Source: Bacillota bacterium (GTDB taxonomy: Bacteria; Bacillota; Clostridia; Oscillospirales; Acutalibacteraceae). Taken from it: DNA of 40,371 nt. The notes under the pieces are model-generated. The model ran no database searches and had not been told where the DNA came from. It saw only the letters and a program-made list of their open reading frames with translations. How positions within the stretch are numbered: the first letter of the stretch is position 1; every line of letters begins with the position of its first letter. The translations under genes were made by a program, and so were the position numbers. Shown piece by piece: positions 11,574 through 40,371 of the stretch. Where the stretch lies: contig JAETPP010000007.1 of assembly GCA_021771115.1 (NCBI GenBank), positions 1 to 40,371 of the forward strand, written 5' to 3'.

Positions 11574-11584
11574 CATGGTGGAAA

Positions 11585-12475: not shown

Positions 12476-12492
12476 ATTGCTCTTCTCCTCCT

Positions 12493-24841: not shown

Positions 24842-25228
24842 TCAGACGACCGTATCAAGCTGGAAATCTGCGCTCTCCGCCACGATCTCAATAACCACCT
24901 TGTGCGGCAGGCAGACAATGGTTTCACCCACATAGGTCACCGGCCGGGTCTTGACGCAGATCTCATCCGGACAGTTTGCCGCAGAAATTCGGGCTTTGCC
25001 GTCTTCAATGACCAGCAGGTTTTCCTGTTCGCCTTTTTCACCTGTGGTGATGGGGATCTCAGCGTTTTCGCTCAGCGGGTACATCTCCGTAACGGTCCCG
25101 TTGATCTTCACGGCGGCAAAGGCTCCAGGTTCCCGGTTTGCACGATACAACAAGAATCCTGCCGCCGCTATCAAAACAATAGCGGCGACAAGAATCAGGT
25201 CATTGCGCGCAGAGCGGCATCTGTTCAT
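24842..25228 (-). CDS. NusG domain II-containing membrane-anchored protein
   Basis: This 128-residue protein has an N-terminal membrane anchor (ILVAAIVLIAAAGFLLY, about 12-28) and one extracytoplasmic NusG-II (PF07009-like) domain: VKINGTVTEMYPL, LLVIEDGKARISAANCPDEICV and IVCLPHKVVIEIV. Two cysteines in NCPDEIC plus the later CLPH form a conserved arrangement of this family. Its biochemical role is unknown; it repeatedly accompanies Rnf, Gx-transporter and ApbE genes. The start ATG overlaps the rnfB stop (ATGA), so translation is coupled to rnfB. It is not the transcription factor NusG. Confidence 0.9.
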   Translation of the reverse strand: MNRCRSARNDLILVAAIVLIAAAGFLLYRANREPGAFAAVKINGTVTEMYPLSENAEIPITTGEKGEQENLLVIEDGKARISAANCPDEICVKTRPVTYVGETIVCLPHKVVIEIVAESADFQLDTVV

Positions 25229-26031: not shown

Positions 26032-26045
26032 GATACTTCCCCTCC

Positions 26046-26660
26046 TTATGCCAGAAGATTTTCAACGATCCCCGCAAAGCCGAAGAATGCCATGGAAATA
26101 AAGGACGCGGCAATCAACGTAACCGGAAGGCCCTTGAAGCTGGCGGGCACGTTGCTTTCCTCAATGCGGGAACGCATTCCGGAAAAGAGCACCATGGCCA
26201 GCAGGAAGCCCAAACCGCAGCCCAGAGAGCTGACAATGGAGAACAGAAACGCGTTGGGCTCGGTAACGCCGTAATCGGTGATATTGTTGATAGTAACGCC
26301 CAAAACGGCGCAGTTTGTGGTAATCAGGGGAAGGTACACACCCAGGCTCTTGTGAAGAGCGGGAATGAACTTCTTCAGAAAGATCTCAATAAACTGAACC
26401 AGGGCCGCGATGACAAGGATGAACATGATGGTCTGCATATAGCCCATGCCCAGAGGCTCCAGAACGAACGCCTGGATGGGCCAGGTAACGGCCGTGGCCA
26501 CCAGCATCACAAAGATGACGGAAAGACCCATGCCCACCGACTGATTCACCTTTTTGGAAACGCCCAGGAAAGGGCAAATGCCCAGGAAACGGCTGAGGAC
26601 ATAGTTGTCCACCAGGACAGAGGACATAATGATGATAATCAGGGTTTTTGCCAGTTCCAT
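26046..26660 (-). CDS. rnfA: Rnf complex membrane subunit RnfA
   Basis: This 204-residue polytopic membrane protein includes VDNYVLSRFLGICPFLGVSKK and LPLITTNCAVLGVTINN. C29 and C117 are the conserved cysteines that, with the matching pair in RnfE, hold the intramembrane [2Fe-2S] centre described for Rnf and Na+-NQR relatives. RnfA and RnfE form a pseudo-symmetric pair thought to couple electron transfer across the membrane with Na+ or H+ translocation. The ATG directly abuts the rnfE stop (TAAATG) and its ribosome site AAGGAGG lies inside rnfE, so the two are translationally coupled. Length and motifs are normal. Confidence 0.97.
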   Translation of the reverse strand: MELAKTLIIIIMSSVLVDNYVLSRFLGICPFLGVSKKVNQSVGMGLSVIFVMLVATAVTWPIQAFVLEPLGMGYMQTIMFILVIAALVQFIEIFLKKFIPALHKSLGVYLPLITTNCAVLGVTINNITDYGVTEPNAFLFSIVSSLGCGLGFLLAMVLFSGMRSRIEESNVPASFKGLPVTLIAASFISMAFFGFAGIVENLLA

Positions 26661-27368
26661 TTACTTTTCCTCCTTTTCTTCAGAGGCAGAGTCTGACCCG
26701 CAGCTGCCGCTGCAGCCGGCTACAGCGGGGCAGCCCGCGCAGGAGAATTCCTTCTTCTTGATGACCTTTCCCTTGGTGATCCTGTTGACCACGGCAATCA
26801 GACAGCCGTACACCAGAAGTCCGCCGGGGGCCTTGCCCAGAATGCTGATGGTAAGACCGTTGTTCACCAGGAAAGGGATCTCGTGACCGGCAAAGGAACC
26901 GGCGCCCAGAATCTCCCGGACGATGGACATGGCCAGCAGGGCGATGGTAAAGCCCAAGCCCATGCCGATACCATCCAGCGCGGACTTACCAATGGAATTC
27001 TTGCTGGCAAACATCTCGGCGCGGCCGAGAATGATGCAGTTGACGGTGATCAGGGCCAGGTATACGCCCAGCGTGGTGTACAGATCGGGCAGAAGCGCGT
27101 GGATCACCATCTGAACCACGGTCACAAATCCGGCAATCACTACAATATAGCAGGGGATTCGCACCGTATCGGGAATGAACTTCCGCAGAGCGGAAATTAC
27201 GATGTTCGAGCAGACAAGAACTGCCAGAGTGGCAAGCCCCATGCCCAGGGCGCCGTTGACAGTGGTGGTAGTGGCCAGCGTAGGGCAGGTGCCCAAAATG
27301 AGAACGAAAACGGGGTTCTCACGAAGGAGGCCTTTCAGCAGAATGGACATACTATTTTCTTTTTTCAC
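26661..27368 (-). CDS. rnfE: Rnf complex membrane subunit RnfE with cysteine-rich tail
   Basis: This 235-residue membrane subunit has typical sequence LRENPVFVLILGTCPTLATTTT and LALITVNCIILGRAE. C28 and C111 are the predicted [2Fe-2S] ligands partnered with RnfA. Residues after about 204 form an unusual tail, KKKEFSCAGCPAVAGCSGSC followed by an acidic stretch, adding four cysteines in CxxC-x5-CxxxC spacing absent from the RnfE core family. The start is taken as GTG 27368, using AAGGAG near the end of rnfG; ATG 27350 lacks a clear ribosome site. It lies 2 nt after rnfG. The tail may bind a metal or cluster, or be a redox thiol site (inference). Confidence 0.95.
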   Translation of the reverse strand: MKKENSMSILLKGLLRENPVFVLILGTCPTLATTTTVNGALGMGLATLAVLVCSNIVISALRKFIPDTVRIPCYIVVIAGFVTVVQMVIHALLPDLYTTLGVYLALITVNCIILGRAEMFASKNSIGKSALDGIGMGLGFTIALLAMSIVREILGAGSFAGHEIPFLVNNGLTISILGKAPGGLLVYGCLIAVVNRITKGKVIKKKEFSCAGCPAVAGCSGSCGSDSASEEKEEK

Positions 27369-27370
27369 CT

Positions 27371-28552
27371 TTACGCAACTCCTTCCATGAGCTTGACTGC
27401 CTCGAATGCCTTGGAGAGACCGGTCTTGTATCCCTTAGACGTGAAGGTGGCGCCGCTGATGCCGTCAATGCCGTCCAGCGTATCCTCCGTAGCGCCGTTA
27501 AAACGTGTATAGAATTCCTTTTTCCCGCAGGCGTCGCCGATATTCTCGCTCTCATGCTGCTCCTCGGTGAAACAGGAGATGATCCGGCCGTCGGGAGTGA
27601 CAGCAACCTTAATGTAGATGTACTCACCGGAAGGATTGTAGTACGCATCGCCGTTGATGCCGAAGCCTGCCGCATGGAGCCGGAGCACATAGTTGCCGCT
27701 GGCAGTCTTGAATGCCTGATCAATGTGAGAAGGCATATCGGCATACTGGGTGAGATCCACTTCCTCCATGGAAGAGGCTGCCATGATCGCCGCCTGGGCT
27801 TCCACGTTGGCCTTAACGTCGGCCGGCACATCGGAAAGTACCGTGCCGGAAGCGTCTACGCCCACAAACTGGGCCTCTTCTCCCTCGCCTACCACGTAGA
27901 CGGAGCCGGAGCCGTTGTCCGCCGCGTACACAGCGGATACGCCGTCCAGCTCTTCGCAGAGAAAGACCTCGGTGAAGGCGTCGCCCTCGGGCAGAGCCTC
28001 TGCCAGGCTGTCGGCAATGATCTCTTCTTCAGAACGGATGTCCACGCTGCCGCCGCCCAGAATAATGGCGCTGTTCAACGCGTCCTTGACGGCGTTCCGG
28101 TAATTAGAGGTGGTCATGGTAGCGCCGGCGATCGTATCCATGCTGTCGATGGTATCCGCCGTAGCGCCCACCAACGTGCTGCCGTATTCCTGTTCCTTAC
28201 CCAGCGTTTCGTTGCTGGACAGGCACACGGCGCCGGACACAGCGCCATTGGCGTCCACACCGCACATGATGATCATGTCGGGACCATAGCCGGTGGTATT
28301 GAGCTGTACCACCGCACCGCCGTTGGAGGCAGTATACGCCTCCTGGACTGTGGCGGGCAGCTCGTACGCCGTCAGGTCCACCTGCTCAAAGGTACCCCCA
28401 TCAGGCAAAACATCCAGCAGAGCGCCGCTGGCCTTGGCCTGATCGTTTTTCTCAATAATGGGCGCGGTAAACTGATCGGTAACTGCCAGAAGGGCGGCAA
28501 CCACCGCGCAGATGACTGTGAGAGAGACAATACTTTTCAGATAATTTTTCAT
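27371..28552 (-). CDS. rnfG: RnfG-type subunit with duplicated FMN-binding domain
   Basis: This 393-residue protein is about twice the usual RnfG length (near 200 aa). One N-terminal transmembrane helix (IVSLTVICAVVAALLAV) is followed by two FMN-binding domains outside the membrane. Domain 1 (about 60-165) ends in DTIAGATMTTSNYRNAV with candidate flavinylation Thr145. Domain 2 (about 200-390) ends in GISGATFTSKGYKTGL with Thr369 in a canonical SGAT motif. RnfG takes part in periplasm-side electron transfer between the RnfA/E cluster and RnfD/C. A second FMN could lengthen or branch the path. The start ATG overlaps the rnfD stop by 4 nt with GGAGGCGATAAG as ribosome site. ApbE encoded nearby is the expected FMN-attaching enzyme. 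The long spacer between domains is acidic and alanine-rich. Confidence 0.93.
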   Translation of the reverse strand: MKNYLKSIVSLTVICAVVAALLAVTDQFTAPIIEKNDQAKASGALLDVLPDGGTFEQVDLTAYELPATVQEAYTASNGGAVVQLNTTGYGPDMIIMCGVDANGAVSGAVCLSSNETLGKEQEYGSTLVGATADTIDSMDTIAGATMTTSNYRNAVKDALNSAIILGGGSVDIRSEEEIIADSLAEALPEGDAFTEVFLCEELDGVSAVYAADNGSGSVYVVGEGEEAQFVGVDASGTVLSDVPADVKANVEAQAAIMAASSMEEVDLTQYADMPSHIDQAFKTASGNYVLRLHAAGFGINGDAYYNPSGEYIYIKVAVTPDGRIISCFTEEQHESENIGDACGKKEFYTRFNGATEDTLDGIDGISGATFTSKGYKTGLSKAFEAVKLMEGVA

Positions 28553-29475
28553 TTCTTATCGCCTCCAAACAGTTTACGGTTACATTTTGCATCAATAAAA
28601 GGATTGACAATGTTCATCAGCAGAATGGCAAAGGAAACACCCTCCGGGTAAACGCCCCAGAAGCGGATCAGCACGGTGATCACACCGGCGCCGATACCAA
28701 AGATGATTTTGCCCACCGCGTTAATGGGAGAGGTCACATAATCCGTGGCCATGAAGAAAGCGCCGATCAGAAGGCCGCCGGACAGCACCCAGGCCAATGC
28801 CGCCTCCATGTCTCCGCCCTCCAGCAAAAGAGTGAACAGGAACACTGTGCCAATAAAGGCCACGGGGATGTGCCAGCTGATCACCCTGCGGATCAACAGA
28901 TAGACGCCGCCGATAATCAGCGCCAACGCGCAGGTCTCACCGATAGCGCCGCCGTTTTTGCCCAGGAAAAGATCCAGCAGGCTGGGGGCCACGCCATTGT
29001 CCAAATCCGTCAAGGGAGTGGCGCCGGAGGCGGAATCCATTCCCTTGGGGAACACCGCAGAGGTCATGGAGCCAAAAGCCAGCAGCATGAACACGCGGGC
29101 AGTGATGGCGGGGTTCACGATATTCTTGCCCAGGCCGCCGAACACGCCCTTGACAAGCACCACCGCAAAGACAGCGCCTACAGCGGCCTGCCACAGGGGG
29201 ACACTGGCGGGAAGGTTCAGGGCCAGAAGAAGGCCGGTGACAACACAGCTCAGGTCGCCGATGGTCTGGTCTCTTTTCAGAATGAGATTGAACAGAAATT
29301 CGCCGAGAACGGCGGACGCCACGCAGACCGCAATCACCAGCAGAGCGTCAAGGCCGAAGAGGATCACTCCTGCGATCGTTGCGGGAAGCAGAGCCAGAAT
29401 GACGTCCAGCATGACGCCGCCGGTGGTCTTCCTGCCGTGAATATGAGGAGAAACCGCAATGTTTAGCTTTTCCAT
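28549..29475 (-). CDS. rnfD: Rnf complex membrane subunit RnfD (flavinylated)
   Basis: This 308-residue polytopic membrane protein is homologous to NqrB. The start region SPHIHGRKTTGGVMLDV and the segment FGGLGKNIVNPAITARVFML are family hallmarks. SGATPL places the covalent FMN at Thr153. The C-terminus WGVYPEGVSFAILLMNIVNPFID is also typical. RnfD carries electrons within the membrane, together with RnfG and RnfC, toward NAD+ and is a candidate ion-translocating subunit. The start overlaps the rnfC stop by one base (TAATG). Length is slightly short for the family but no conserved segment seems missing. Confidence 0.97.
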   Translation of the reverse strand: MEKLNIAVSPHIHGRKTTGGVMLDVILALLPATIAGVILFGLDALLVIAVCVASAVLGEFLFNLILKRDQTIGDLSCVVTGLLLALNLPASVPLWQAAVGAVFAVVLVKGVFGGLGKNIVNPAITARVFMLLAFGSMTSAVFPKGMDSASGATPLTDLDNGVAPSLLDLFLGKNGGAIGETCALALIIGGVYLLIRRVISWHIPVAFIGTVFLFTLLLEGGDMEAALAWVLSGGLLIGAFFMATDYVTSPINAVGKIIFGIGAGVITVLIRFWGVYPEGVSFAILLMNIVNPFIDAKCNRKLFGGDKK

Positions 29476-30788
29476 TATGCATTTGCCTCCTTTTGCTTAT
29501 ACTCCCGCAAAGCTGCCTTGGCCAGCTTGTTTGTCTGCACTAGCGGGCGGTTGGCAGGACAGCCGAACGAGCAGCAGCCGCACTCCATGCAGAGCTCTAC
29601 GCCTGCCTTGATGGCCATTTCCATATCACCGCTGTCATACCCTCTGGCAATCGCCGGCACGTTGATGCCGAAGGGGCAGTGGTTCACACAGGCGCCGCAA
29701 TGGATGCAGGCAGTGGTTTTGGGTGTTTTTGTCTCGTTCTTATCCAGAGCCAGAATAGCGTTGGTCTGTTTCAGAACGGGAGCCTCCAGATCCGCTACGG
29801 CAATACCCATCATGGGTCCGCCGTACAGGACTTTATCCGGGTCGCAGGTAAGGCCGCCGCAGAACTCGAACACATCACCCAGAGCCGTACCGATGGGAAC
29901 AATGACGTTTTTGGGCTCTTTGACAGCGGCGCCGTCTACTGTGATGGTCCTTTCCACCAGAGGCATGCCCGTTTCCAGGTACATCCCGATATTGGCCATC
30001 GTAGAGGAGTTGCACACCACGCAGCCCGCATCGATAGGCAGCTGCCCTTGTTTGATCACCCTGCCGGTGGTGTGGTAAACCAGCACCTTTTCACCGCCCT
30101 GGGGGTAAATGGAGGGCAGCTCCGCCACGGAGACCTTGCCGTTTTGCTGGGCCAGCTCCTTCATCTTGGCGACGGCTTCCGGCTTATTCTTTTCGATACC
30201 GATGATGACCTTGTCAAAAGCAAACCAGGCATCCAGAGCCTCAATTGCGCGGGCTATGTAATCCGCCTTCTCCACCATGGTGATGGAATCGCTGGTGATG
30301 TAAGGCTCGCACTCAGCGCCGTTGATCACCAAAATTTCGATCTTCTTGTCGGTGGCGAACTTAGCATAGGTGGGAAAGCCTGCGCCGCCAAGGCCTACAA
30401 GGCCGCTCTTTTTCAGAGCCTCCAGCATGTCCTCCCGGCTGTGGATCGCCGGAGGGGCGATAGTGGGATCGGGCGTCATGGACCCATCCGATTCAATGGT
30501 GACCGCCGGTGCAGTGCTTCCGTTGGAGAGCACCATATCGTCTACCTTTTTCACCGTTCCCGACACGCTGGCATAAATGGGAGAGGAAATGAATCCGTTC
30601 TGTTCGGCAATCAGCGTTCCCACATCCACATGATCCCCGACTGCAACCACAGGGGTGGCGGGCTTGCCAATATGCATCACCATGGGAATGGTAACGCTTT
30701 TTACGTCCGTCATCCTGACCGGGGACATATTGGCCGTGTGTTTTCTGTGAGGCACATGAATACCGCGAAGAGAAACTGCCATGTGCAT
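29475..30788 (-). CDS. rnfC: Rnf complex subunit RnfC (NADH-side)
   Basis: This 437-residue peripheral subunit oxidises or reduces NAD(H) on the cytoplasmic face. The N-terminus has RGIHVPHRKHTA, and a biotinyl/lipoyl-like barrel follows. The NADH/FMN site is marked by GLVGLGGAGFPTYAKF (about 128-143) and NGAECEPYITSD. Two 4Fe-4S motifs come near the end: C361, C364, C367, C371 (CIHCGACVNHCP) and C400, C403, C406, C410 (CMECGCCSFGCP). ATG 30788 has AAAGG in good position; the frame extends further only through an unlikely GTG at 30845 beyond the ribosome site. An ATG two codons later (30782) is equally possible. It is the first gene of the operon, behind a consensus promoter. Confidence 0.96.
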   Translation of the reverse strand: MHMAVSLRGIHVPHRKHTANMSPVRMTDVKSVTIPMVMHIGKPATPVVAVGDHVDVGTLIAEQNGFISSPIYASVSGTVKKVDDMVLSNGSTAPAVTIESDGSMTPDPTIAPPAIHSREDMLEALKKSGLVGLGGAGFPTYAKFATDKKIEILVINGAECEPYITSDSITMVEKADYIARAIEALDAWFAFDKVIIGIEKNKPEAVAKMKELAQQNGKVSVAELPSIYPQGGEKVLVYHTTGRVIKQGQLPIDAGCVVCNSSTMANIGMYLETGMPLVERTITVDGAAVKEPKNVIVPIGTALGDVFEFCGGLTCDPDKVLYGGPMMGIAVADLEAPVLKQTNAILALDKNETKTPKTTACIHCGACVNHCPFGINVPAIARGYDSGDMEMAIKAGVELCMECGCCSFGCPANRPLVQTNKLAKAALREYKQKEANA

Positions 30789-30860
30789 TGACCTACCTTT
30801 CCATATTTGTGTGTTTCTGCGGGAAATCGAAACGAGCCGCGTCACACTACATGCTATTCA

Positions 30861-30889: not shown

Positions 30890-30946
30890 CAGAACCACCG
30901 ATTTTTTCGTAATTTACTTTTCCTTCCAGAGATTGCTCCTTTCTTC

Positions 30947-30976: not shown

Positions 30977-31030
30977 TGAGCTGTTTAGGCTTTATGGGAT
31001 GATTGAAAAATCAAAAACACCGTCCTTTTT

Positions 31031-31183: not shown

Positions 31184-31207
31184 CGTCAGCCTGAAGGAGG
31201 TGCAGAT

Positions 31208-31681
31208 ATGCTGATTTTACTGTTTATCCTGTGGATCGTACTCAACGGCAGGTTTACCTGGGACACTGGAATGCTGCAGATCGTGATCGTGGGCATTCTG
31301 GTAGCGGCGCTGGTTTACGCCTTTATCCGCCGCACCTTGGGATACTCCCTGAAAACGGAGCTCCGCCTGCTCAGAAAAGCTCCTCTGCTGCTGGCCTACG
31401 CCCTTCTGTTGATCAAGGAAGTGGTGGCCGCCAACGTGCAGATGATGCGGCTGGTGCTTCGGAAGGATCTGGAACTCCACCCTGTCATGGTGAAGATCAG
31501 ACCGCCGCTGAAGGCCCGGGCCACGCGGGTGCTTCTGGCTAACTCCATCACCCTCACCCCCGGAACCATCACCGCAGAGGTGGACGGCGACGAACTGATC
31601 GTCCACTGCGTTGACCGAACGTTTTCCGAGGGAATGGAAAACAGCTCCTTTGTAAAAATGCTGGAAAGGTTGGAAAAGTAA
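31208..31681 (+). CDS. mrpE: Mrp antiporter subunit E / MbhA-like
   Basis: This 157-residue membrane protein begins with LILLFILWIVLNGRFTWDT. The conserved MnhE/MrpE segment is ANSITLTPGTITAEVDGDELIVHCVD. The start is ATG 31208 with GAAGGAGGTG upstream; the longer frame from 31175 runs through this ribosome site and is rejected. MrpE is a small accessory subunit needed for assembly of the multi-subunit Na+/H+ antiporter, and it corresponds to MbhA in the Pyrococcus membrane-bound hydrogenase. It opens an operon in which nearly all genes overlap or touch. Confidence 0.93.
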   Translation: MLILLFILWIVLNGRFTWDTGMLQIVIVGILVAALVYAFIRRTLGYSLKTELRLLRKAPLLLAYALLLIKEVVAANVQMMRLVLRKDLELHPVMVKIRPPLKARATRVLLANSITLTPGTITAEVDGDELIVHCVDRTFSEGMENSSFVKMLERLEK

Positions 31682-31682
31682 A

Positions 31683-31985
31683 GTGATAGAGCAGGCCTAT
31701 TTTTATTTGTATGCCGCTGTTCTTCTGGGACTGGGCGTTGCAGCGGTGGTCGCCCTGATCCGTTCTGTTACGGCAGGAAATATCATCGGCAAGTTTATCG
31801 GCATCAACATGCTGACCACCATCACGGTTATCATCATCTGTGTGCTGGCCCTTCTTTTCGGCGAGAGCTATCTCCCCGACATTGCTGTCATCTATGCGCT
31901 GCTCAGCTGTATTGCGGTAGTGCTTCTCAGCAAAATTTACATCAGCCTGTTTAAAAAAGGTGGAAAAGGAGGCAGGAAGGAATGA
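31683..31985 (+). CDS. mrpF: Mrp antiporter subunit F / MbhB-like
   Basis: This 100-residue protein has three hydrophobic segments and the MrpF core GNIIGKFIGINMLTTITVIII then YLPDIAVIYALLSCIAVVLLSKI, with the typical membrane Asp (D66 in LPDIA). It is a small structural subunit of the antiporter bundle. The start is GTG 31683, one base after the mrpE stop, with GGAAAAG as ribosome site. The next gene overlaps by 4 nt. The length is normal for the family. Confidence 0.92.
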   Translation: MIEQAYFYLYAAVLLGLGVAAVVALIRSVTAGNIIGKFIGINMLTTITVIIICVLALLFGESYLPDIAVIYALLSCIAVVLLSKIYISLFKKGGKGGRKE

Positions 31986-32341
31986 TAGAGTGGATTCGTT
32001 TTGGGTTAACAGCCCTTCTCTTCGGGGCGGGACTGATCGTCCTGTTCATCTCGCTTTTTGGAACCTTCCGGCTGAAGTATTCTCTGAACCGGATGCATTC
32101 CGCCGCCATGTGCGATACCCTGGTCCTTCTGCTCTGCATCGGAGCCTGCGTAATCGCCTCAGGCTTCCATGTGGTCTCTGTGAAATTTCTGCTGATCGTC
32201 TTTATCATCTGGTGCACCAGCCCGGTAACATCCCATGTGTTTGTAAAGGCAAAATACTTAACGGACGAAAATCTGTCAGAGCACTGTGACATTTCCTTTG
32301 AGAAAAAGATGGATGAAGAAAAAAAGGAGGAGGCAGAATGA
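31982..32341 (+). CDS. mrpG: Mrp antiporter subunit G / MbhC-like
   Basis: This 119-residue protein shows the MnhG/MrpG pattern: FGAGLIVLFISLFGTFRLKYSLNRMHSAAMCDTLV, then WCTSPVTSHVFVKAKYL, and a charged C-terminal tail. It is a three-helix accessory subunit. The start shares ATGA with mrpF, with GGAAAAGGAGG upstream. The order E-F-G followed by an MbhD gene copies mbhA-B-C-D of archaeal membrane-bound hydrogenase rather than the mrpA-to-G order of bacilli. Confidence 0.93.
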   Translation: MIEWIRFGLTALLFGAGLIVLFISLFGTFRLKYSLNRMHSAAMCDTLVLLLCIGACVIASGFHVVSVKFLLIVFIIWCTSPVTSHVFVKAKYLTDENLSEHCDISFEKKMDEEKKEEAE

Positions 32342-32646
32342 TGGAAACCTTTGTGACGATCCTGCGGATCCTGCTTCTGCTGTCTCTGATCGTCTGCGCC
32401 ATTGCGACGGCCCTTTCCAAAAAAGTGATGACCGCCGTGATCGTGTTCACCTCTTACAGCATCATCATGGCGGTGATCTGGCTGCTGCTGCGTTCTCCCG
32501 ACCTGGCCATTACCGAGGCCGCCGTAGGCGCCGGTGTCAATGGCGTGTTGTTTTTTCTGACCCTTCGCAAGCTCCATAAGATCGACAGAGAGAACGAAGC
32601 GAACAACAAAAAAGAGAAAGGGGAGGATCCTCGTGAAAAGCCGTAA
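32338..32646 (+). CDS. MbhD-like subunit (part of the MrpA C-terminal region)
   Basis: This 102-residue protein has three hydrophobic segments, and RSPDLAITEAAVGAGVNGVLFFLTL is the MbhD/DUF4040 signature with its conserved membrane Glu. In most bacteria this unit is fused to the end of MrpA; here it is separate, as in Mbh. It overlaps mrpG by 4 nt and the next gene by 14 nt, so translation is strongly coupled. A second in-frame ATG at 32341 is an equally good start. The tail is highly charged (RENEANNKKEKGEDPREKP). Confidence 0.88.
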   Translation: MMETFVTILRILLLLSLIVCAIATALSKKVMTAVIVFTSYSIIMAVIWLLLRSPDLAITEAAVGAGVNGVLFFLTLRKLHKIDRENEANNKKEKGEDPREKP

Positions 32647-33568
32647 GCCAGGCCGTTTCCGCCAATGGTACGAAGGCGGGATGGACTTTGACAAAGAAAT
32701 GTCCCGGCCCGTGGAGATCATTCCGGTCAGACAGGTCAAGGATGAGCCCCATAACATTCCCGAAAAGATCAGCACCTACGATTGGCTGGAAAAGGATGAG
32801 GTCAGGGCCTCCCACGTGGGGTATCTGATCCTGTCCGTGATTTTCTGCCTGATCCTGGCGGCTGTTTTTATCGGTGTCATCAATTTTCTGCCCGGATTTG
32901 CCGATGAGCAAGCGCCCACGGCCAACGAGATATACGAGCACTATGTGGGCCAGGGCCGTGATCAGACAGGCGCTGTCAACACCGTTGCCGGTATGATTTT
33001 GGATTACCGCGCCTTCGATACCCTGGGAGAATCCTTCGTGTTATTTACGGCCACCTGCGCCGTGCTCCTTCTGCTGGAAAAGACCAAAAGCGCTCCCCTG
33101 AAAAAGAAAAAAGGAGAGGACAAGGAGGAAGCCTTCACCTTTACCAGCGACCCTATCGTCTGTCTGGTGACAAAGATCATTGTGCCGGTCATCCTTGTTT
33201 TCGGCGTCTATGTTCTGTTTAACGGCCATCTTTCCCCCGGCGGCGGCTTTTCCGGCGGGGCGATTCTGGGCACAGGACTGATCCTCTATGCCATAGCCTT
33301 CGGCGAAGAGCAGGCGGCCAAAGCGATTCCCGCCAAGGCAGTCCGCGTGATCACCGTGCTTTCCCTCTCCTTCTACTGTCTTTCCAAAAGCTATTCCTTT
33401 TTTACAGGCAACGAATTCAACGGCGTACATTCCGTCATCACACCGGGCACCCCCGGAGACCTGATCTCCGGCGGACTGATCCTGCCTCTGAACCTGGCGG
33501 TGGGCTTTGTGGTGTGCTGTACGATGTACAGCTTCTATATGGTTTTCAAAAGGGGGCGTCTGGATTGA
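32633..33568 (+). CDS. MbhE-MrpB (MbhF) fusion subunit
   Basis: This 311-residue protein joins two normally separate subunits. Residues about 60-150 are MbhE-like, with one helix (YLILSVIFCLILAAVFIGVI), an extracytoplasmic loop and AVNTVAGMILDYRAFDTLGESFVLFTA. Residues about 175-305 are MnhB/MrpB-like, with IIVPVILVFGVYVLFNGHLSPGGGFSGGAILGTGLIL. About 55 soluble residues precede the first helix. The start is GTG 32633 with GGGGAGG upstream, 14 nt inside the previous gene. MbhE corresponds to the last part of MrpA, so MrpA is represented here only by pieces plus the separate antiporter subunits downstream. Confidence 0.88.
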   Translation: MKSRKPGRFRQWYEGGMDFDKEMSRPVEIIPVRQVKDEPHNIPEKISTYDWLEKDEVRASHVGYLILSVIFCLILAAVFIGVINFLPGFADEQAPTANEIYEHYVGQGRDQTGAVNTVAGMILDYRAFDTLGESFVLFTATCAVLLLLEKTKSAPLKKKKGEDKEEAFTFTSDPIVCLVTKIIVPVILVFGVYVLFNGHLSPGGGFSGGAILGTGLILYAIAFGEEQAAKAIPAKAVRVITVLSLSFYCLSKSYSFFTGNEFNGVHSVITPGTPGDLISGGLILPLNLAVGFVVCCTMYSFYMVFKRGRLD

Positions 33569-33942
33569 ATCTTCTCGTCAATTATGAAGAAGTGACCTCC
33601 ATGGTGCTGTTTGCCATTGGCTTTACCATGCTGGTATTTTCCAGGAACATCATGAAAAAGATCCTGGGCCTGAATATCATGGATACCGGCGTGTACCTCT
33701 TCCTGGCCTCCATGGGATATATCGAAAACAAGCTGTCCCCCATCGTTCCGGCAACGGGCCCGGTGGACGCGCATCGGTATATCAACCCGATCCCCGCCGG
33801 CCTGGTGTTGACCGGAATTGTGGTGTCCGTCAGTTTTTCCGCGCTGATGCTGGCCCTGGCGGTGCGCCTCTATCAAAAGTATCACACCCTGGATCTGGAT
33901 GAGATTTATAAAAAATGCTGCAGCGAGGATGAGGAAGAATAA
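33565..33942 (+). CDS. mrpC: Mrp antiporter subunit C / MbhG, NuoK-like
   Basis: This 125-residue NuoK-type protein has three helices: VLFAIGFTMLVFSRNIMKKILGLNIMDTGVYLFLAS, then PIPAGLVLTGIVVSVSFSALMLALAVRLY. MrpC/NuoK conserved features include the SRN-IMKKILGLNIM stretch and the NPIPAGLVLTGIVVS segment. The likely start is TTG 33565, overlapping the previous stop and preceded by AGGGGGCG; ATG 33601 would cut into the first helix, and earlier codons overlap the previous gene too far. It packs between MrpA- and MrpD-type subunits in known structures. The stop overlaps the next start by one base (TAATG). Confidence 0.9.
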   Translation: MNLLVNYEEVTSMVLFAIGFTMLVFSRNIMKKILGLNIMDTGVYLFLASMGYIENKLSPIVPATGPVDAHRYINPIPAGLVLTGIVVSVSFSALMLALAVRLYQKYHTLDLDEIYKKCCSEDEEE

Positions 33943-35450
33943 TGGAGTTTTTGAAGAATTTTCCTTTTTTCACGATCATTTTGTCGCTGTTCTGCGGCGT
34001 GATCTGCTTTGCGTTCAAGGATAGAAAGGCACGGTTCGTCACTTATTTTCTCCTGGTGGTATCCGGCGCTCTTTCCGCCGGAACGCTGGTATATAACCTG
34101 ACCACGGAGCCGGGATATTTTGCCTACAGAATGGGCCATTATGATGCGCCCATCGGCAACGAGATCTCCGCCGGGCTTCTGGAGCCCTTCTTTGCTCTTC
34201 TCTTTGAGATCGTGATTCTGCTGGCTTTGGTAGGCGGCTCCCAGAGGATCGCTCGGGACGTGGACGAATCGAAGCACCGTTTTTTCTATATCATGGTCAA
34301 CCTGACCCACGCGGCGCTGACAGCCCTCTGCTATACCAACGATATTTACACTGCCTATGTCTTTATCGAAATCTGCACCATTGCCTCCTGCGCCCTGCTG
34401 ATGTCCAGCAAACGAACCAGATCGCTGGTGGCGGCCACCCGGTATACCATTTTCAGCCTCATTGGCTCCAGCCTTGTTTTGATCGGCATTGTGCTGCTTT
34501 ACTCCATTACCGGGCAGCTGCTTTTCCCTCAGCTCTATGGGACCATCCGGCAGCTCTGGGAGGCAGGCGCATATACCACGCCGCTCACCATCGCCCTGGG
34601 CCTGATCATTTCCGGTCTGGCCATCAAAAGCGGCATGTTCCCCTTCCACTGGTGGATGCCGGACACTTACGGCACAGCCACGCCGGCCGCCTCCGGTATC
34701 CTTTCGGGCGTAGTTTCCAAGGGATACATTTTTCTGCTTCTGAAAATGATTTTTCGGGTCATTGGCTTTGATATCTTCGTGGACACCGGCATTCATAACA
34801 TACTCCTGATTTTCGGCGTGTGCGGCATGGTGGTAGGCTCGATCTCCGCGATCAAGACAAACAACATCACCTTTATGACAGCCTATTCCTCTGCGGCCCA
34901 AATCGGCTACATCTATATGGGATTGGGGCTCGGCACCAAAGAGGCTCTGGTGGCCTCGCTGTTCCAAATCGTTGCCCACTCTCTGACCAAGCCCATGATC
35001 TTCCTTGCCATATCGGGCCTTTCCGACACGGCCGGCGGAAAGCAGGACTTTGATTCTCTTCGTTCCTCCGCTCATCAGAATCGCTCCGCTGCTGCGGCGT
35101 TCACGGTAGGCGCGCTCTCCATGGTGGGCATTCCTATCTTTGCGGGGTTCGTCCCCAAGCTGCTGTTTGCCGTTTCAGCCTTCGGCCACGGGGCCATGAC
35201 CTATGTGGTATTGGTCGCTCTGGCGGTAAGCACCATCCTGAACGTGCTGTATTTCCTGCGGACGCTGATCAATATTTACAGCCCGCCCATTGCACAGCTG
35301 GAACGCCGGGCCATCCCGTTCTCCGCCTCCAAAGCCTTTTCTGTTACCGTTCTGGCCATGGCAGCGGTCAACCTTGCCATCGGCCTTCATTCGCAGCCCA
35401 TTGTCTCTTTGTTTGAGAAGGGCATGGATGTTTTTATGAACATCCACTAG
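33942..35450 (+). CDS. mrpD: MrpD/MbhH-like antiporter subunit
   Basis: This 502-residue protein is the first of four proton-antiporter-like (NuoL/M/N-family) subunits in a row. The transporter helices carry E143 (YVFIEICT, TM5 Glu) and K229 (GLAIKSGMFPFHWWMPD, TM7 Lys), plus SGVVSKGY with the TM8 Lys. The usual AHPVAPAPAS segment is changed to YGTATPAAS, as in MrpD-type subunits. Position directly after mrpC supports assignment as MrpD/MbhH. The C-terminal half shows a broken helix region (SMVGIPIFAGFVPKLLF). It is likely one proton or Na+ path of the complex. The start overlaps the mrpC stop. Confidence 0.85.
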   Translation: MEFLKNFPFFTIILSLFCGVICFAFKDRKARFVTYFLLVVSGALSAGTLVYNLTTEPGYFAYRMGHYDAPIGNEISAGLLEPFFALLFEIVILLALVGGSQRIARDVDESKHRFFYIMVNLTHAALTALCYTNDIYTAYVFIEICTIASCALLMSSKRTRSLVAATRYTIFSLIGSSLVLIGIVLLYSITGQLLFPQLYGTIRQLWEAGAYTTPLTIALGLIISGLAIKSGMFPFHWWMPDTYGTATPAASGILSGVVSKGYIFLLLKMIFRVIGFDIFVDTGIHNILLIFGVCGMVVGSISAIKTNNITFMTAYSSAAQIGYIYMGLGLGTKEALVASLFQIVAHSLTKPMIFLAISGLSDTAGGKQDFDSLRSSAHQNRSAAAAFTVGALSMVGIPIFAGFVPKLLFAVSAFGHGAMTYVVLVALAVSTILNVLYFLRTLINIYSPPIAQLERRAIPFSASKAFSVTVLAMAAVNLAIGLHSQPIVSLFEKGMDVFMNIH

Positions 35451-35463
35451 GGAGGAATTGAAA

Positions 35464-36897
35464 ATGATGATGCTACTTTCCATCGGTCTCCCCTTTCTCT
35501 TTGGCCTTTCCATGCTATTCGGAAAGAGGATCCCGAACCGCGCCATAAAAATGGCTCTGATCGTGGCCATGCAGGCTGTCGTTACCCTGTGCGGTCTGGC
35601 GGTGATATTCGGCGGGCCTGCCTCCACCGGGAAATATTATTTTACAGATAAATTGTCCGTAGGCTTCACGGCAGACGGCGTTTCCCGGTTTTTCTGTGCC
35701 ATTGTGACAGTGGCCTGGCTCCTGGTAACGGTGTACGCCACCGTTTATATGAAGCATGAGGGCCACGAGGAGCGGTTCTTCCTGTTCTCCTTTTTGACAG
35801 AGGGCGCCATGTTGGGAGCGGCTTTTTCCGATGGCCTGATCTCCATGTATCTTTTCTATGAGATGGTGACCCTGTTCTCCATGCCGCTGGTGCTCCATTC
35901 CCTGTCGGCAGAATCCGTGGCGGCGGCCAAAAAATATCTGTACTACTCCATTGCCGGCGCGTTTCTGGCGCTTTTCGGCATCTTTGTCATCGGCGTCCAT
36001 GCCGATACCCTGGACTGTGTGGTGGGGGGAACTTTTACTGAGGTGACGCCTCTGGTGGCAGTGGCCGTTTTCGCCATGTGTCTGGGCTTCGGCGCCAAGG
36101 CCGGCCTCTTCCCGCTGCACGGATGGCTGCCTACGGCCCATCCGGTAGCCCCCGCTCCTGCCAGCGGACTGCTTTCGGGCGTGATCGCCAAGGCAGGTGT
36201 TCTGGCCATTCTCCGTACCCTGTTCTTTACGGTGGGCCCGGAGCCCCTGTCCGGCACCTGGGTGCAGATCGCCCTGCTCTGCTTCTCTCTGTTGACGGTT
36301 CTGATGGGCTCCATGATGGCCTACCAGGAAAAAATCTTTAAGAAAAGGCTGGCCTACTCCACCATCAGCCAGATCTCCTATGTGCTTTGCGGCCTGTTCC
36401 TTTTGAATGAGGCCGGTGTGGAAGGCGCCCTGTGGCAGATCCTGTTTCACGCCTTTGTGAAGGTGGGCCTGTTCCTCTGTGCCGGAGCGGTCATTTTCCT
36501 GTACGGGAAGACAAAAGTGACGGAGCTCAAGGGCATTGGCAGGCAGATGCCTGTTACCTTCATCTGCTTTACAGTGCTGTCCCTTTCCTTAATTGGCATT
36601 CCGCCCACAGGTGGCTTTTTCAGTAAATGGTACCTGGCCACTGCGTCTCTCGCCACCTCCGGCATCGGCGCGCTGAGCTGGATCGTCCCCGTCGTTCTCC
36701 TGGCCTCCGCCCTTCTGACCGCGGGATACCTGCTGGATATTTCCATCGGCGCCTTCCTGAAAGAGCCCGAAACCACGGAACCTATTAAGGCAGAGCCTGC
36801 GGCCATGAAAGCGGTTCTTGTGCTCCTGGCCCTCATCGCCCTGGCGGGCGGGCTGTTTGCCGCTCAAACCCAGGGCATCATAGCATCGGTAATGTGA
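35464..36897 (+). CDS. Proton-antiporter-like membrane subunit (NuoM/N-like), second of four
   Basis: This 477-residue polytopic protein has the complete Proton_antipo_M signature: E133 in SMYLFYEMVTLFSMPLVLHS, K212 in GFGAKAGLFPLHGWLP, the TAHPVAPAPASGLLSGVIAKAG stretch, and SLIGIPPTGGFFSKWY near the C-terminus. The start is ATG 35464 with GGGAGGA upstream; a TTG two codons earlier is disfavoured. All charged residues needed for proton translocation in complex-I-like pumps are intact. It is more like NuoM or NuoN than MrpD. The gap to mrpD is only 13 nt. It is co-transcribed with the other antiporter subunits. Confidence 0.85.
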   Translation: MMMLLSIGLPFLFGLSMLFGKRIPNRAIKMALIVAMQAVVTLCGLAVIFGGPASTGKYYFTDKLSVGFTADGVSRFFCAIVTVAWLLVTVYATVYMKHEGHEERFFLFSFLTEGAMLGAAFSDGLISMYLFYEMVTLFSMPLVLHSLSAESVAAAKKYLYYSIAGAFLALFGIFVIGVHADTLDCVVGGTFTEVTPLVAVAVFAMCLGFGAKAGLFPLHGWLPTAHPVAPAPASGLLSGVIAKAGVLAILRTLFFTVGPEPLSGTWVQIALLCFSLLTVLMGSMMAYQEKIFKKRLAYSTISQISYVLCGLFLLNEAGVEGALWQILFHAFVKVGLFLCAGAVIFLYGKTKVTELKGIGRQMPVTFICFTVLSLSLIGIPPTGGFFSKWYLATASLATSGIGALSWIVPVVLLASALLTAGYLLDISIGAFLKEPETTEPIKAEPAAMKAVLVLLALIALAGGLFAAQTQGIIASVM

Positions 36898-36917
36898 TAA
36901 GTAAGAGGTACTGCGAA

Positions 36918-38372
36918 ATGAGTGAAAAATTCTTATTAGCCCCTGTATTCCTTCCCTTCATCCTTGGAGCTGTGCTCTTTCTGATCCCCTTTCGGAGCCA
37001 GCGCAGCCGCAACGTCTATGTGATGATCTCGCTTCTCTGCTCGGCGGCGTGCGTGTGGCTGTCGGCCTTTCTGGTGCCGGAGCGTTCCCTGATCCTTCTG
37101 CGGTTCATGGAAGACCTGACCTTTTCCCTGAAGCTCGACGGCGCGGGAAAGCTTTTTTCCTGTCTGTCAGCCACCCTATGGCCCATTACCGCTCTGTATG
37201 CCTTTGATTATATGAGGGAGGAAGAACATCACCAGATGTTTTACTGCTTCTTTGTGATGTCCTTTGGCGCTACCATGGGCATTGCCATGGCCGGCAACAT
37301 CCTGACTATGTACCTGTTCTACGAAATGCTCACCCTGACCACCATTCCCCTGGTGATGCATGGAATGACGAAGAAGCATAACCGGGCGGCCAGGAAATAT
37401 ATGGCCTATTCCATCGGCGGCGCGGCCTTTGCCTTTGCCGGAGTCGCTTATCTGATCGCCAACGGCGCAGGCGGCTTCGTACCGGGAGGCAGTTTGAAGG
37501 CCGTGGACGATCGAGTTCTGGCCCAGGTACTGTATGTTCTGGCCTTTATGGGATTCGGCGTAAAGGCGGCTTTGTTTCCCTTCCACGGCTGGCTGCCTAC
37601 GGCTTCGGTTGCTCCCACCCCCGTTACCGCGCTGCTGCACGCAGTGGCTGTAGTCAAGGCAGGCGCCTTTGCTCTGATCAGACTCACCTACTACGCCTAC
37701 GGTACAGATTTCCTGCGGGGAACGCCTGTACAGTACATTGTAATGACCGTCGCCATGTTCACCATTCTATATGGCTCGGCCACGGCGCTGCGGCAGAATC
37801 ATTTCAAGCGAAGGCTTGCCTACTCCACCGTTTCCAATCTCTCCTATATCGCCTTTGCGGTGACCCTTATGACTCCGGCCGGGCTTATGGCTGCTTTCTG
37901 CCACCTGATTTTTCACTCTGTTATTAAGATCGGCGCCTTTTTTGCAGCAGGCTCGGTGCTGCACAATACAGGCCGGGAATTCGTTCCCCAGCTGGAGGGA
38001 ATCGGCCACAAGATGCCCTGGACCTTTGGCTTCTTCACCGTGTTTGCCCTGGCTCTGACGGGCATTCCTCCCTTCTGCGGCTTTTTCAGCAAATGGTACA
38101 TCTGCTCGGCTGCTCTGGAAGCCGGCAGCGGATTTGCCACAGCGGGCGTGATCGTGCTTCTTGTCTCCGCCCTGCTGACGGCCCTTTATATGCTGTCTCC
38201 CGCGATCAAGGCCTTTTTCCCCCGGCAGGGTGTGGAGACAGCCCTTGAAGACGTCAAGGAGGCAAATTGGAAAATGCTGGTTCCCATGGGGATCTGCGCC
38301 GTGCTCTGTGTGGTGCTGGGAATTTTTGTGACCTTCCCCGTTCAGCTGATTACGGAGGTGCTGGGATTATGA
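36918..38372 (+). CDS. Proton-antiporter-like membrane subunit, third of four
   Basis: This 484-residue polytopic protein has E136 in TMYLFYEMLTLTTIPLVMHG and K216 in GFGVKAALFPFHGWLPTA. It continues with SVAPTPVTALLHAVAVVKAGAF, a variant that places His in the TM8 segment, as in many MrpA/NuoL-type subunits. The C-terminal region has LTGIPPFCGFFSKWYI. ATG 36918 is preferred (AAGAGGT upstream) over a GTG at 36894 that overlaps the previous stop but lacks a ribosome site. It is clearly paralogous to the gene before it, sharing the YLFYEM and FHGWLPTA motifs, but differs in the TM7-8 linker. Confidence 0.85.
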   Translation: MSEKFLLAPVFLPFILGAVLFLIPFRSQRSRNVYVMISLLCSAACVWLSAFLVPERSLILLRFMEDLTFSLKLDGAGKLFSCLSATLWPITALYAFDYMREEEHHQMFYCFFVMSFGATMGIAMAGNILTMYLFYEMLTLTTIPLVMHGMTKKHNRAARKYMAYSIGGAAFAFAGVAYLIANGAGGFVPGGSLKAVDDRVLAQVLYVLAFMGFGVKAALFPFHGWLPTASVAPTPVTALLHAVAVVKAGAFALIRLTYYAYGTDFLRGTPVQYIVMTVAMFTILYGSATALRQNHFKRRLAYSTVSNLSYIAFAVTLMTPAGLMAAFCHLIFHSVIKIGAFFAAGSVLHNTGREFVPQLEGIGHKMPWTFGFFTVFALALTGIPPFCGFFSKWYICSAALEAGSGFATAGVIVLLVSALLTALYMLSPAIKAFFPRQGVETALEDVKEANWKMLVPMGICAVLCVVLGIFVTFPVQLITEVLGL

Positions 38373-40348
38373 TGATAGCCGCTCTTACCTGTGTTTTTCT
38401 CCCGTTTCTCTCTTCCGTACTCATCCTCGCTTTCCGCAAAAGCGGCTCCTTTCAGCATGGGGTGGTCATTCTCACCGGGTTGACCGTTTTCCTGTCCGCG
38501 CTGGGGCTTGCCTTCGGAGGCAACGGAGAAGGGGCAGCCGTCCTCTCCCTCCGCTTTGCCCAAAACGGATTTCAGTGCACCTATGCGGTGGTCACGGCTT
38601 TTATGTGGCTGTGCGCCGCTCTCCTCTCTCCCCAGTATTTTCAGGGGCATCACAAGGTGGGAAGATATTATTTCTTCTATCTGCTCACCTTCGGAGCCAC
38701 CATGGGTGTGTTCCTTTCCGCAGATCTGATAACCACCTTTGTATTCTTTGAGATCATGTCTTTCGCTTCCTACATGTGGGTGGTTCAGGAGCAGGACAGG
38801 GAAGCCATGGCTGCCGGAAAAACCTATCTGACCATTGCGGTACTGGGCGGCATGGTCCTGCTGATGGGACTATTCCTGCTGTACAGCGTTACGGGAACGC
38901 TGACGATTGCAGAGCTCTACAGCGCTGTTTCCGCCGCAGGGCCTTCTACCAAGCTTTATGCGGCCGCATTTTGCATGTTATTCGGCTTTGGCGCCAAGGC
39001 CGGCCTTTTTCCTTTGCACATCTGGCTGCCAAAAGCCCATCCTGTGGCCCCTGCTCCCGCCAGTGCGCTGCTTTCCGGCGTGCTGACCAAAACCGGCGTA
39101 TTCGGCATTCTGGTCGTTACGGCAAACGTTATGCGGGAGGATCCCCTGTGGGGTTACGTCCTGCTGGTGCTGGGGGCGATCACCATGGTGCTGGGCGCGG
39201 TTATCGCCGTTTTTTCCACCAACCTGAAAAGGACACTGGCCTGTTCCTCTCTTTCCCAGATCGGGTTTATCACCGTGGGTGTTTCCATGATTACACTTCT
39301 GAGAGAACATAACGGACTGGCCGCCAGCGGCACCGTTCTCTACATGCTGAACCATTCTATTGTCAAGCTGGTTCTGTTCCTCTCGGCCGGCGCCATCTAT
39401 GCGGGCGCCCATACCCTGGACATCAACGAGCTGAAAGGATATGGCCGCAATAAGCCTGAAATTCTGATCCCCTTCCTGTGCGGCGCCTGCTCTCTGGCAG
39501 GCATTCCCGGCTTTGCGGGGTATCTTTCCAAAACACTGGTTCATGAGAGCATTGTGGAGTACGCGGCGCAGGCTGGTCCGCTGATCACGGCTGTGGAGTG
39601 GCTTTTCCTGTTTTCCGGGGGCCTCACCGCCGCGTATATGCTGAAGCTGTTTGTCACCATTTTTGTGGAAAAGCCCACGGGAGCCACGGCTGCGGTCCAC
39701 GGTAAGACCTCCTTCCTCAGCGGGCTGGCCCTGGCCCTTTCCGCCGTCATGCTTCCGGCAGCAGGCCTTTTGCCTCATGCCCTGGCAGACAGGATCAGCG
39801 AGGCCATGACCCCATTTGTAAATGGTGCGCCCATTTCCCACGCGGTTCACTATTTCTCCCTGGAGAACTTGAAGGGCGTCGGGATTTCTCTTGCCATCGG
39901 CATACTGGTTTACGTGTTGGTGATCCGGCAGCTGCTGATGAAAACGGAAAACGGCAGAAGGCTTCATTACAATCCTCTGGCCGGAAAATTCTCCCTGGAG
40001 GACAATGTCTATGTACCCCTGCTGAAAGGCCTTACCTTCCTGCTGACCGTGATCCTCCGCTTCTGCTGCGATATTGTGGATATATTCCTCCTGCTGTTGA
40101 GCAAAACGGTCCTGAGGCTGGCGAAAGAACCCGCAGAGCCCCACCGGAGAAAGTACGCTTACGCTGCGGGTTCCCTGTACGGAAGTCTGCGCAAGCGGGA
40201 TCCGGAGGAGCAAGGGCAGCGGCTGTCCCAGGCTGTGGAAACCATTTCCAAAACCACCAGGCAGCTTTCCCTGGGATTCTCCTTTGCTCTGCTGATGACC
40301 TTCTTCGGCGTGGTTCTGATCCTCCTTTTCCTGATCTTCTTCCAGTGA
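38369..40348 (+). CDS. NuoL-like antiporter subunit with C-terminal extension, fourth of four
   Basis: This 659-residue protein has an antiporter core with E128 (TFVFFEIMSFASYMW), K210 (GFGAKAGLFPLHIWLPKAHP), VAPAPASALLSGVLTKTG and SLAGIPGFAGYLSKTLVHE. Beyond about residue 480 it continues with an extra region of further hydrophobic segments and a basic stretch (PAEPHRRKYAYAAG) and ends in a final helix (FSFALLMTFFGVVLILLFLIFF). This recalls the lateral-helix extension of NuoL/MrpA-type subunits, though I cannot confirm the horizontal helix. The start is ATG 38369, overlapping the previous stop (ATGA) with GGAGG 10 nt upstream; the longer frame inside the previous gene is rejected. Only 23 nt follow before the window ends, so the operon probably continues. 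Confidence 0.85.
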   Translation: MMIAALTCVFLPFLSSVLILAFRKSGSFQHGVVILTGLTVFLSALGLAFGGNGEGAAVLSLRFAQNGFQCTYAVVTAFMWLCAALLSPQYFQGHHKVGRYYFFYLLTFGATMGVFLSADLITTFVFFEIMSFASYMWVVQEQDREAMAAGKTYLTIAVLGGMVLLMGLFLLYSVTGTLTIAELYSAVSAAGPSTKLYAAAFCMLFGFGAKAGLFPLHIWLPKAHPVAPAPASALLSGVLTKTGVFGILVVTANVMREDPLWGYVLLVLGAITMVLGAVIAVFSTNLKRTLACSSLSQIGFITVGVSMITLLREHNGLAASGTVLYMLNHSIVKLVLFLSAGAIYAGAHTLDINELKGYGRNKPEILIPFLCGACSLAGIPGFAGYLSKTLVHESIVEYAAQAGPLITAVEWLFLFSGGLTAAYMLKLFVTIFVEKPTGATAAVHGKTSFLSGLALALSAVMLPAAGLLPHALADRISEAMTPFVNGAPISHAVHYFSLENLKGVGISLAIGILVYVLVIRQLLMKTENGRRLHYNPLAGKFSLEDNVYVPLLKGLTFLLTVILRFCCDIVDIFLLLLSKTVLRLAKEPAEPHRRKYAYAAGSLYGSLRKRDPEEQGQRLSQAVETISKTTRQLSLGFSFALLMTFFGVVLILLFLIFFQ

Positions 40349-40371
40349 TCATAGACGCGAAAATGCTCCTT

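Follow-up and report, generated by a model that had tools for sequence, protein, structure and literature searches.

A conserved ten-gene operon of Clostridia that probably encodes a stand-alone group 3 Mrp antiporter with four antiporter-type subunits

Gene content and proposed function

Ten close-packed genes on the + strand (31208-40348) of a Bacillota contig (JAETPP010000007.1) probably encode one stand-alone electrogenic cation/H+ antiporter of Mrp (CPA3) group 3. The window, i.e., the whole stretch of DNA that was analysed, is the entire contig of 40,371 nucleotides. Based on open reading frames and Pfam families, the genes comprise mrpE-F-G, mbhD, a fused mbhE+mrpB, mrpC and four genes for antiporter-type subunits, which are labelled D1 to D4 here in gene order. 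Gene content, gene order, conservation, charged residues, the predicted fold of D4 and the absence of a redox module (with one genome as an exception) carry this reading. In the proposed mechanism, the E, F and G subunits and the MrpB half of the fusion would form the cation module, most likely for Na+, while MbhD, the MbhE half of the fusion and MrpC would form the junction. D1 to D4, presumably assembled in a single complex, would provide four proton channels in a row, and D4, as an MrpA/NuoL-like end piece, would clamp this row by a lateral helix. The driving force would be ion gradients, not electrons: inward-moving protons may push the cation out, or transport may run the other way if a sodium gradient is set up by a Na+ pump such as Rnf. 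The ten genes are the following:

31208..31681, + strand: mrpE/mbhA (MNHE family), 157 amino acids; Pfam PF01899, 102 bits
31683..31985, + strand: mrpF/mbhB (MrpF_PhaF), 100 amino acids, GTG start; Pfam PF04066, 36.5 bits
31982..32341, + strand: mrpG/mbhC (PhaG_MnhG_YufB), 119 amino acids; Pfam PF03334, 53.4 bits
32338..32646, + strand: mbhD, 102 amino acids, equivalent to part of transmembrane helices (TM) 17-21 of MrpA; Pfam PF13244, 70.6 bits
32681..33568, + strand: mbhE + mbhF/mrpB fusion, 295 amino acids; Pfam PF20501 (MbhE) and PF04039 (MnhB); best PDB match 6u8y_E
33568..33942, + strand: mrpC/mbhG (NuoK-like, Oxidored_q2), about 124 amino acids; Pfam PF00420, 82.5 bits; start provisional (the open frame begins at 33514)
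33942..35450, + strand: D1, 502 amino acids; E143, K229, K260, K406; PF00361, 161.8 bits; best PDB match MbsH (6u8y_H)
35458..36897, + strand: D2, 479 amino acids; E135, K214, K245, K390; PF00361, 183.2 bits; best PDB match MbhH (6cfw_H)
36894..38372, + strand: D3, 492 amino acids; E144, K224, K255, K400; PF00361, 174.6 bits; best PDB match MrpA (7qru_A)
38369..40348, + strand: D4, 659 amino acids, with a C-terminal extension; E128, K210, K241, K388; PF00361, 188.4 bits; best PDB match by sequence MbhH (6cfw_H)

All ten genes score above the Pfam curated cut-offs, and the 161.8-188.4 bits of D1 to D4 for Proton_antipo_M compare with a cut-off of 21.5. These four are the only Proton_antipo_M matches in their own genome (G000). 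Five of the nine gene joints overlap by 1-4 bp (F/G, G/mbhD, C/D1, D2/D3 and D3/D4), and the gaps at E/F (1 bp), D1/D2 (7 bp) and mbhD/fusion (34 bp, with the starts used here) are short, a layout expected of one operon. According to the NcbiFam and Pfam matches, E, F, G, B-type, C and D subunits are encoded together, as in group 3 Mrp systems. A single mrpA gene is absent, the MrpA-like parts being split among D4, mbhD and the fusion. At the same time, the A-B-C-D-E-(F)-G-H membrane set of MBH, MBS and MBX is present. An earlier, sequence-only reading had described an Mbh-ordered operon with E and F fused and with four antiporter subunits that carry intact Glu/Lys pairs; both the Pfam families and the residue alignment agree with that description.

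Relatives and distribution

Because the contig ends 23 bases past the end of D4, the loci of relatives were read. The resulting set of 100 loci consists of the window, 19 order-level loci and 80 named loci; one locus with three D genes (L059) was excluded. At the order level, 20 genomes were fetched of the 22 with other D4 matches (G213 and G276 were left out). The named loci are the best 80 of at least 579 relatives found by an alignment-based contig scan and ranked by similarity to the query, which biases them to the four-D form; the same scan with the single D4 protein as the query gave no match. An additional 20 class-level loci were read of 29 other matches, mostly the more distant ones. 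One of these matches (G060) was already in the set, and of the eight left unread, five are among the closest.

At E <= 1e-60, D4 occurs in 23 out of 295 genomes of the order and in 30 out of 391 of the class (own genome included in both). With E <= 0.001, 6 out of 40 near genomes match, own included, some by weaker matches to other antiporter subunits, and none of 24 same-genus genomes does. The listed relatives are metagenome-assembled genomes called Clostridia, Lachnospiraceae, Oscillospiraceae, Ruminococcaceae, Erysipelotrichaceae and others, along with isolates such as Anaerotignum neopropionicum, Schaedlerella arabinosiphila, Fusibacillus kribbianus and Hominisplanchenecus murintestinalis. 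Cultured strains that carry the four-channel form include Anaerotignum neopropionicum DSM 3847 and Schaedlerella arabinosiphila DSM 106076.

All four D genes are present in 85 of the 100 loci, in identical order in each of the 85, and 73 loci contain all ten genes. Several of the other 15 loci appear to be interrupted by contig ends. A number of loci deviate in composition. L058 has a D1 fragment and no frame classed as D3. Only a pair of D2-type and D4 genes is seen in L077 (6597-10396), and a pair of D2/D3-type and D4-type genes in L183 (reversed; 9656-12771), with no small Mrp subunit found alongside in either case. In L056, L135, L139 and L141, mrpE, mrpF and mrpG were undetected, as was mbhD in L135 and L141; in L056, the gene preceding the operon lies on the opposite strand. 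Flanking genes were surveyed in frames of at least 90 amino acids over as much as 3.5 kb before and 6 kb after the operon, leaving out the window and nine cut or divergent loci. None of the families found there is shared by more than 8 of the 91 loci, and a conserved neighbour of unknown function was rejected on this basis.

Conserved charged residues

The TM5 glutamate and the TM7, TM8 and TM12 lysines are intact in each of the four D subunits of the window; the TM5 Glu and TM7 Lys are described as essential in MrpA and MrpD in the available text of PMC5703873. Conservation was counted in aligned rows of at least 400 amino acids. In D1, all four residues are retained in 82 of 82 rows. The glutamate of D2 is retained in 90 of 91 rows (one has Lys instead) and each lysine in all 91. 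For D3, the corresponding numbers are 90 of 91 for the glutamate (one gap), 91 of 91 for the TM7 and TM12 lysines and 83 of 91 for the TM8 lysine. D4 retains the glutamate in 99 of 100 rows (one gap) and each lysine in all 100. As these charged residues are nearly invariant, selection seems to act on all four channels. The change of the TM8 lysine to Asn in eight D3 rows is the sole frequent one at the four checked sites. The D2-type protein of the L183 pair seemingly misses its TM5 glutamate, as judged by eye. Outside the D subunits, Glu60 of MbhD is retained in 77 of 77 rows and aligns without gaps with Glu58 of MbsD (6u8y_D), a residue that the consulted part of the MBS paper lists among those proposed for proton transfer (PMC7684303).

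Absence of a redox module

The relatives' loci (1.79 Mb in the 100 loci) were searched by tblastn; the queries were NuoA, B, CD, E, F, G, H and I together with HyfA, C, G, H and I from E. coli, to which the NuoD-, NuoH- and NuoI-like proteins of L023 (G037), a true Mbh-like locus of the same order, were added. L023, a hydrogenase cluster of the Mbh-like kind that also contains hyp-type genes (identified by eye), served as positive control and was detected. No homologue of NuoA, B, CD, E, F, H or I or of HyfA, C, G, H or I was found in the 100 loci, some of which reach less than 1 kb past D4. The sole complex-I-type match is a NuoG-like stretch that lies about 3.6 kb past D4 in L065 (14410-15018), with 25% identity and E 1e-14. 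No redox-subunit match was shown for any of the 20 class-level loci.

The search was extended to genomes. PF00346 (NuoD type) occurs in 20 out of 295 genomes of the order, and among the 23 with D4 in G283 alone. PF00146 (NuoH type) and PF01058 (NuoB type) were searched in 29 genomes, namely the 23 with D4 and six others. Twenty-two of the 23 order-level D4 genomes, own included, match none of the three families, and for nine of them the listed completeness is 97-100%. In the exception, G283, NuoB-, NuoD- and NuoH-type proteins lie on contig C111 and D4 on C104. Among the six others, the control G037, which has no D4, matches PF00146 and PF01058; G513, G669 and G586 match neither; and two genomes with three-D loci have three PF00146 and three PF01058 matches (G640) or one PF01058 match (G491).

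A redox partner encoded downstream is hence rejected, as none was found in the relatives' loci (bar the NuoG-like stretch in L065) or in nearly all genomes. The redox module (J, K, L and N) and the NuoH-like M of MBH, MBS and MBX were not found in the relatives' loci and genomes; nor were NuoB, NuoCD, NuoH and NuoI of complex I (NuoI by the locus search only), and HyfG and HyfI of Hydrogenase-4 and formate hydrogenlyase gave no match outside the control L023. These results bear on several statements of the sequence-only reading. It had noted no hydrogenase or dehydrogenase in the window, which holds for a complex-I or hydrogenase module, with the qualification that a redox complex, Rnf, is encoded next door within the window. 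Of its two suggestions, a very large antiporter is supported by redox subunits missing from the loci (bar L065) and from 22 of the 23 genomes, and an undescribed respiratory-type complex is not supported, given the lack of redox homologues in 100 loci except the NuoG-like one. Downstream genes that complete an Mbh-, Mbx- or Ech-type complex, the result it had named as refuting, do not appear in the relatives' loci.

Structure of D4 and history of the D subunits

An AlphaFold2 model of D4 (46 sequences) has a mean predicted local distance difference test score of 88.4 and a predicted template modelling score of 0.84. At the C-terminus, the model has a helix of 40 residues (543-582), then a break that is predicted poorly (584-589), helices 592-607 and 612-634 and, last, a TM (637-658). 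In Foldseek, it matches MrpA of Bacillus pseudofirmus best (7qru_A; E 2.1e-24, query TM-score 0.77), where the superposition has a root-mean-square deviation of 10.3 A over 718 columns, against 2.9 A over 501 for MrpD (7qru_D). MrpD, NuoL chains and HycC of formate hydrogenlyase are further high matches. The predicted fold fits an MrpA/NuoL-like clamp subunit with a lateral helix HL.

The lateral helix is reported to be lengthened for a fourth pump in 2M complex I (PMC9040806, in the part available). A longer helix HL in the D4 of four-D than of three-D loci was not seen: the stretch from TM15 to the end has a median of 169 residues in the four-D family (130-218, n = 96, including D4 from contigs too short for all four genes and the L077 pair) and of 163 in three-D loci (118-202, n = 13). 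For comparison, it measures 116 residues in E. coli NuoL and 141 in HyfB. In D4 of the alternative four-D loci L176 and L177, it comprises about 248 residues, i.e., ~80 more.

A 79-row tree (IQ-TREE, LG+G4) separates a D1 clade (98/95), a D4 clade (99/99) and a third clade (100/99) that unites D2 and D3 with the middle subunits of three-D loci. Within this third clade, D2 (100/99) and D3 (100/99) of four-D loci are separate groups, whose branching relative to each other and to the three-D middle subunits is weakly supported (72/74). The E. coli rows carry a long-branch warning, and their positions mean little. By this tree, D2 is a paralogue of D3, and D2 was not found in three-D loci. The 20 class-level loci show other chains: 12 are of the type D1-D3-D4 (with D1 of L169 in two pieces), two are D1-D2-D3-D4, in three (L178, L180 and L181; L180 is not in the tree) two D4-type subunits come after D1 and a D3-type is missing, and one is the two-gene pair L183. 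In the remaining two (L176 and L177), the fourth subunit, third of the four antiporter genes, falls outside the D2 clade, which points to four channels having arisen at least twice. Chain length, as read from these sequences, has thus changed more than once.

One tentative proposal, which we would sooner doubt than adopt, is that of a four-channel member of the complex I superfamily that runs on gradients alone and whose channels are gained or lost in evolution as a change of gear: three-D forms, four-D forms by duplication of a D3-type gene or by an unrelated insertion, and forms with duplicated D4. If it were true, more protons would pass per cation than in a two-channel Mrp, and such an altered H+/cation ratio may let fermenters with a low proton motive force build a steep sodium gradient or run the antiporter backwards from Rnf.

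The Rnf operon and the origin of the contig

Upstream of the antiporter genes, the window contains a divergent neighbour that is not part of the antiporter:

25225..30845, - strand: Rnf operon rnfC-D-G-E-A-B (open reading frames, named by eye; homologous set in other loci)

The same arrangement of Rnf and antiporter is found in L045, L046, L063 and L136. In the gap between both (30846-31207), a 12-of-12 sigma-70 consensus (30889 to 30861, - strand) faces rnf and a 10-of-12 site (30947-30976, + strand) faces mrpE. Promoter-like sites amount to nine in total, not far above the 5.5 (standard deviation 2.6) of shuffled sequences.

The contig (G000:C415) may have been misbinned or acquired by horizontal transfer; completeness of the bin is 87.9% and contamination 5.6%. 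The RnfC encoded in the window shares 43-47% identity with its counterparts in 15 same-genus genomes but 59% (with a different program) with that of G155, a genome of another family in which Rnf is also beside the antiporter. MraY, encoded on C110, another contig of this bin, shows 69-95% identity in 10 same-genus genomes and 45-52% in five others. Unlike this comparison of RnfC and MraY, the tetranucleotide pattern does not mark the contig as foreign, because it fits the bin: r is 0.74-0.86 to five bin contigs of at least 6.8 kb and 0.39 to one of 5 kb, versus 0.45 to a same-genus genome and 0.51-0.61 to G155. Further away, two large proteins (1021 and 871 amino acids; 444-6141, - strand) resemble glycoside phosphorylases or related carbohydrate enzymes. 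The 871-amino-acid protein had no match at E <= 1e-20 in eight other genomes searched.

Weighing of alternative explanations

Several observations weigh against a stand-alone group 3 antiporter with four channels in a row. Among the matches listed, none of the ten proteins reaches an NCBIfam curated cut-off. MrpA of 6z16 has Gln at the position of Glu60 in MbhD; as the MbhD described here carries the MBS/MBH-type Glu, the complex is not a plain Mrp. The similar length of the D4 stretch in three-D and four-D loci counts against a simple clamp over four channels, or else the helix is already long enough. Finally, there are 22 terminator-like sites in 30700-40371 (both strands; several intragenic) versus 12.7 (standard deviation 3.5) in shuffles, so that a single transcript for the ten genes, as the gene joints would suggest, is a presumption.

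The same D4 measurement bears on the possibility that D2 and D3 are alternative subunits, so that one operon yields two different three-channel antiporters. D2 and D3 are neighbouring clades, three-D loci exist and the C-terminal stretch of D4 is hardly longer where there are four D genes. Yet, the fixed order of the four genes in all 85 loci and the nearly constant charged residues of both D2 and D3 rather suit fixed places in one row, which makes this possibility unlikely. It is even harder to maintain that the genes form the membrane arm of a respiratory complex with its redox module elsewhere in the genome. The small subunits, with the E+F fusion and the MbhD glutamate, are indeed closest to the MBS pattern, G283 encodes NuoB-, NuoD- and NuoH-type proteins on another contig, and two genomes with three-D loci contain such matches, NuoB- and NuoH-type elsewhere in G640 and NuoB-type in G491; but 22 order-level D4 genomes lack all three types, even the nine that are nearly complete, and we consider such an arm highly improbable.

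Slightly less remote, and still very improbable, is a partnership with Rnf, bound to it or regulated together with it, in which the oxidation of ferredoxin would be coupled to a second ion. The divergent Rnf operon adjoins the antiporter in the window and in the four loci mentioned above, and promoter-like sites in the intervening gap point both ways. Nonetheless, these are just 4 of 91 other loci with Rnf within 3.5 kb upstream, and Rnf was rejected as a partner for this reason. Co-occurrence says little, as RnfC scores above the cut-off in 256 of the 295 order genomes, and the D4 genome G123 (88% complete) has only a weak RnfC match (1.9e-9). A stand-alone antiporter remains preferred, with the identity of its cation as a separate matter: an ion such as K+ or Ca2+ instead of Na+ seems a minority prospect, though one deserving more weight than the foregoing alternatives. 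The argument for Na+ is that it is the usual substrate, and only that, of the Mrp family. In favour of another ion, Mrp-type systems with other substrates, such as Ca2+/H+, appear in the available text of PMC5703873.

Comparison with known systems

According to the accessible parts of PMC8415708, group 3 Mrp systems lack mrpA, sometimes carry mrpD in multiple copies, include the Mrp parts of MBH and MBS and also exist in stand-alone forms. The passages available from Ito et al. define group 3 otherwise, by irregular gene order, and call the Mrp clusters of anaerobes markedly different in structure (PMC5703873). The remark of the sequence-only reading that Mrp has two antiporter-type subunits is valid for classical Mrp and does not extend to group 3, for which several mrpD copies are described (PMC8415708, PMC7784846; in the parts available).

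Stand-alone group 3 systems (mrpEFGBB'CD of Pyrococcus furiosus and cyanobacterial clusters) share with this operon EFG, two MrpB-type pieces, C and D, as well as the absence of both a fused MrpA and a redox module, as far as described in the text available of PMC8415708. However, P. furiosus makes do with just one D and lacks an MrpA-like end subunit, whereas the operon described here has four D subunits with an extended D4; the fusion point differs as well. MBS and MBX resemble it in the set A-B-C-D-E(fused E+F)-G-H-H' (available parts of PMC7684303 and PMC8415708). D1 is closest to MbsH, the fusion is the same as MbsE, its closest match, and Glu60 of MbhD corresponds to Glu58 of MbsD. In contrast, MBS has two H subunits and a redox module (MbsJ, K, L and N) on MbsM, compared to four subunits and no redox module found here. 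Judged from sequence and model, D4 supplies the MrpA/NuoL-like end while the small subunits follow the Mbs pattern.

A group 3 cluster in Ca. Nitrospira alkalitolerans likewise continues downstream of mrpD with two extra genes of NuoM/NuoL type, which its authors, in the part consulted, interpret as additional mrpA/mrpD-like genes (PMC7784846). It is known from one genome and has nhaB, bicA and motB as neighbours; this comparison is by description, not by sequence. Four or five pumping subunits per complex also occur in 2M complex I, rhizobial green complex I and the five-pump Complex_I_3, and the lateral helix is lengthened in the 2M and Complex_I_3 types (PMC9040806, in its available sections). 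These complexes are redox-driven, while in the present operon no redox module was found and no clear lengthening of the helix is seen between three-D and four-D forms. Subunit B of Hydrogenase-4 and formate hydrogenlyase (HyfB, HycC) gives the best NCBIfam model for D4, and the HycC structure is among its best Foldseek matches; yet, the score (245.6 bits) is far under the cut-off of 667, and the hydrogenase genes were not found.

The H+ stoichiometry of Mrp, MBH and MBS is yet to be determined (PMC7684303, in the part available), and the number of protons per antiporter-type subunit and the coupling between subunits are questions for complex I and its relatives alike. With three- and four-channel stand-alone antiporters, the number of channels could be compared to the H+/cation ratio without redox chemistry. 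Among the papers listed in searches of open-licence literature, we found no description of the conserved ten-gene, four-D form and no study of this antiporter, a type of energy coupling that would be widespread among Clostridia. Group 3 Mrp clusters with multiple D genes have been published, and this conserved ten-gene variant with four D subunits seems to be new among them.

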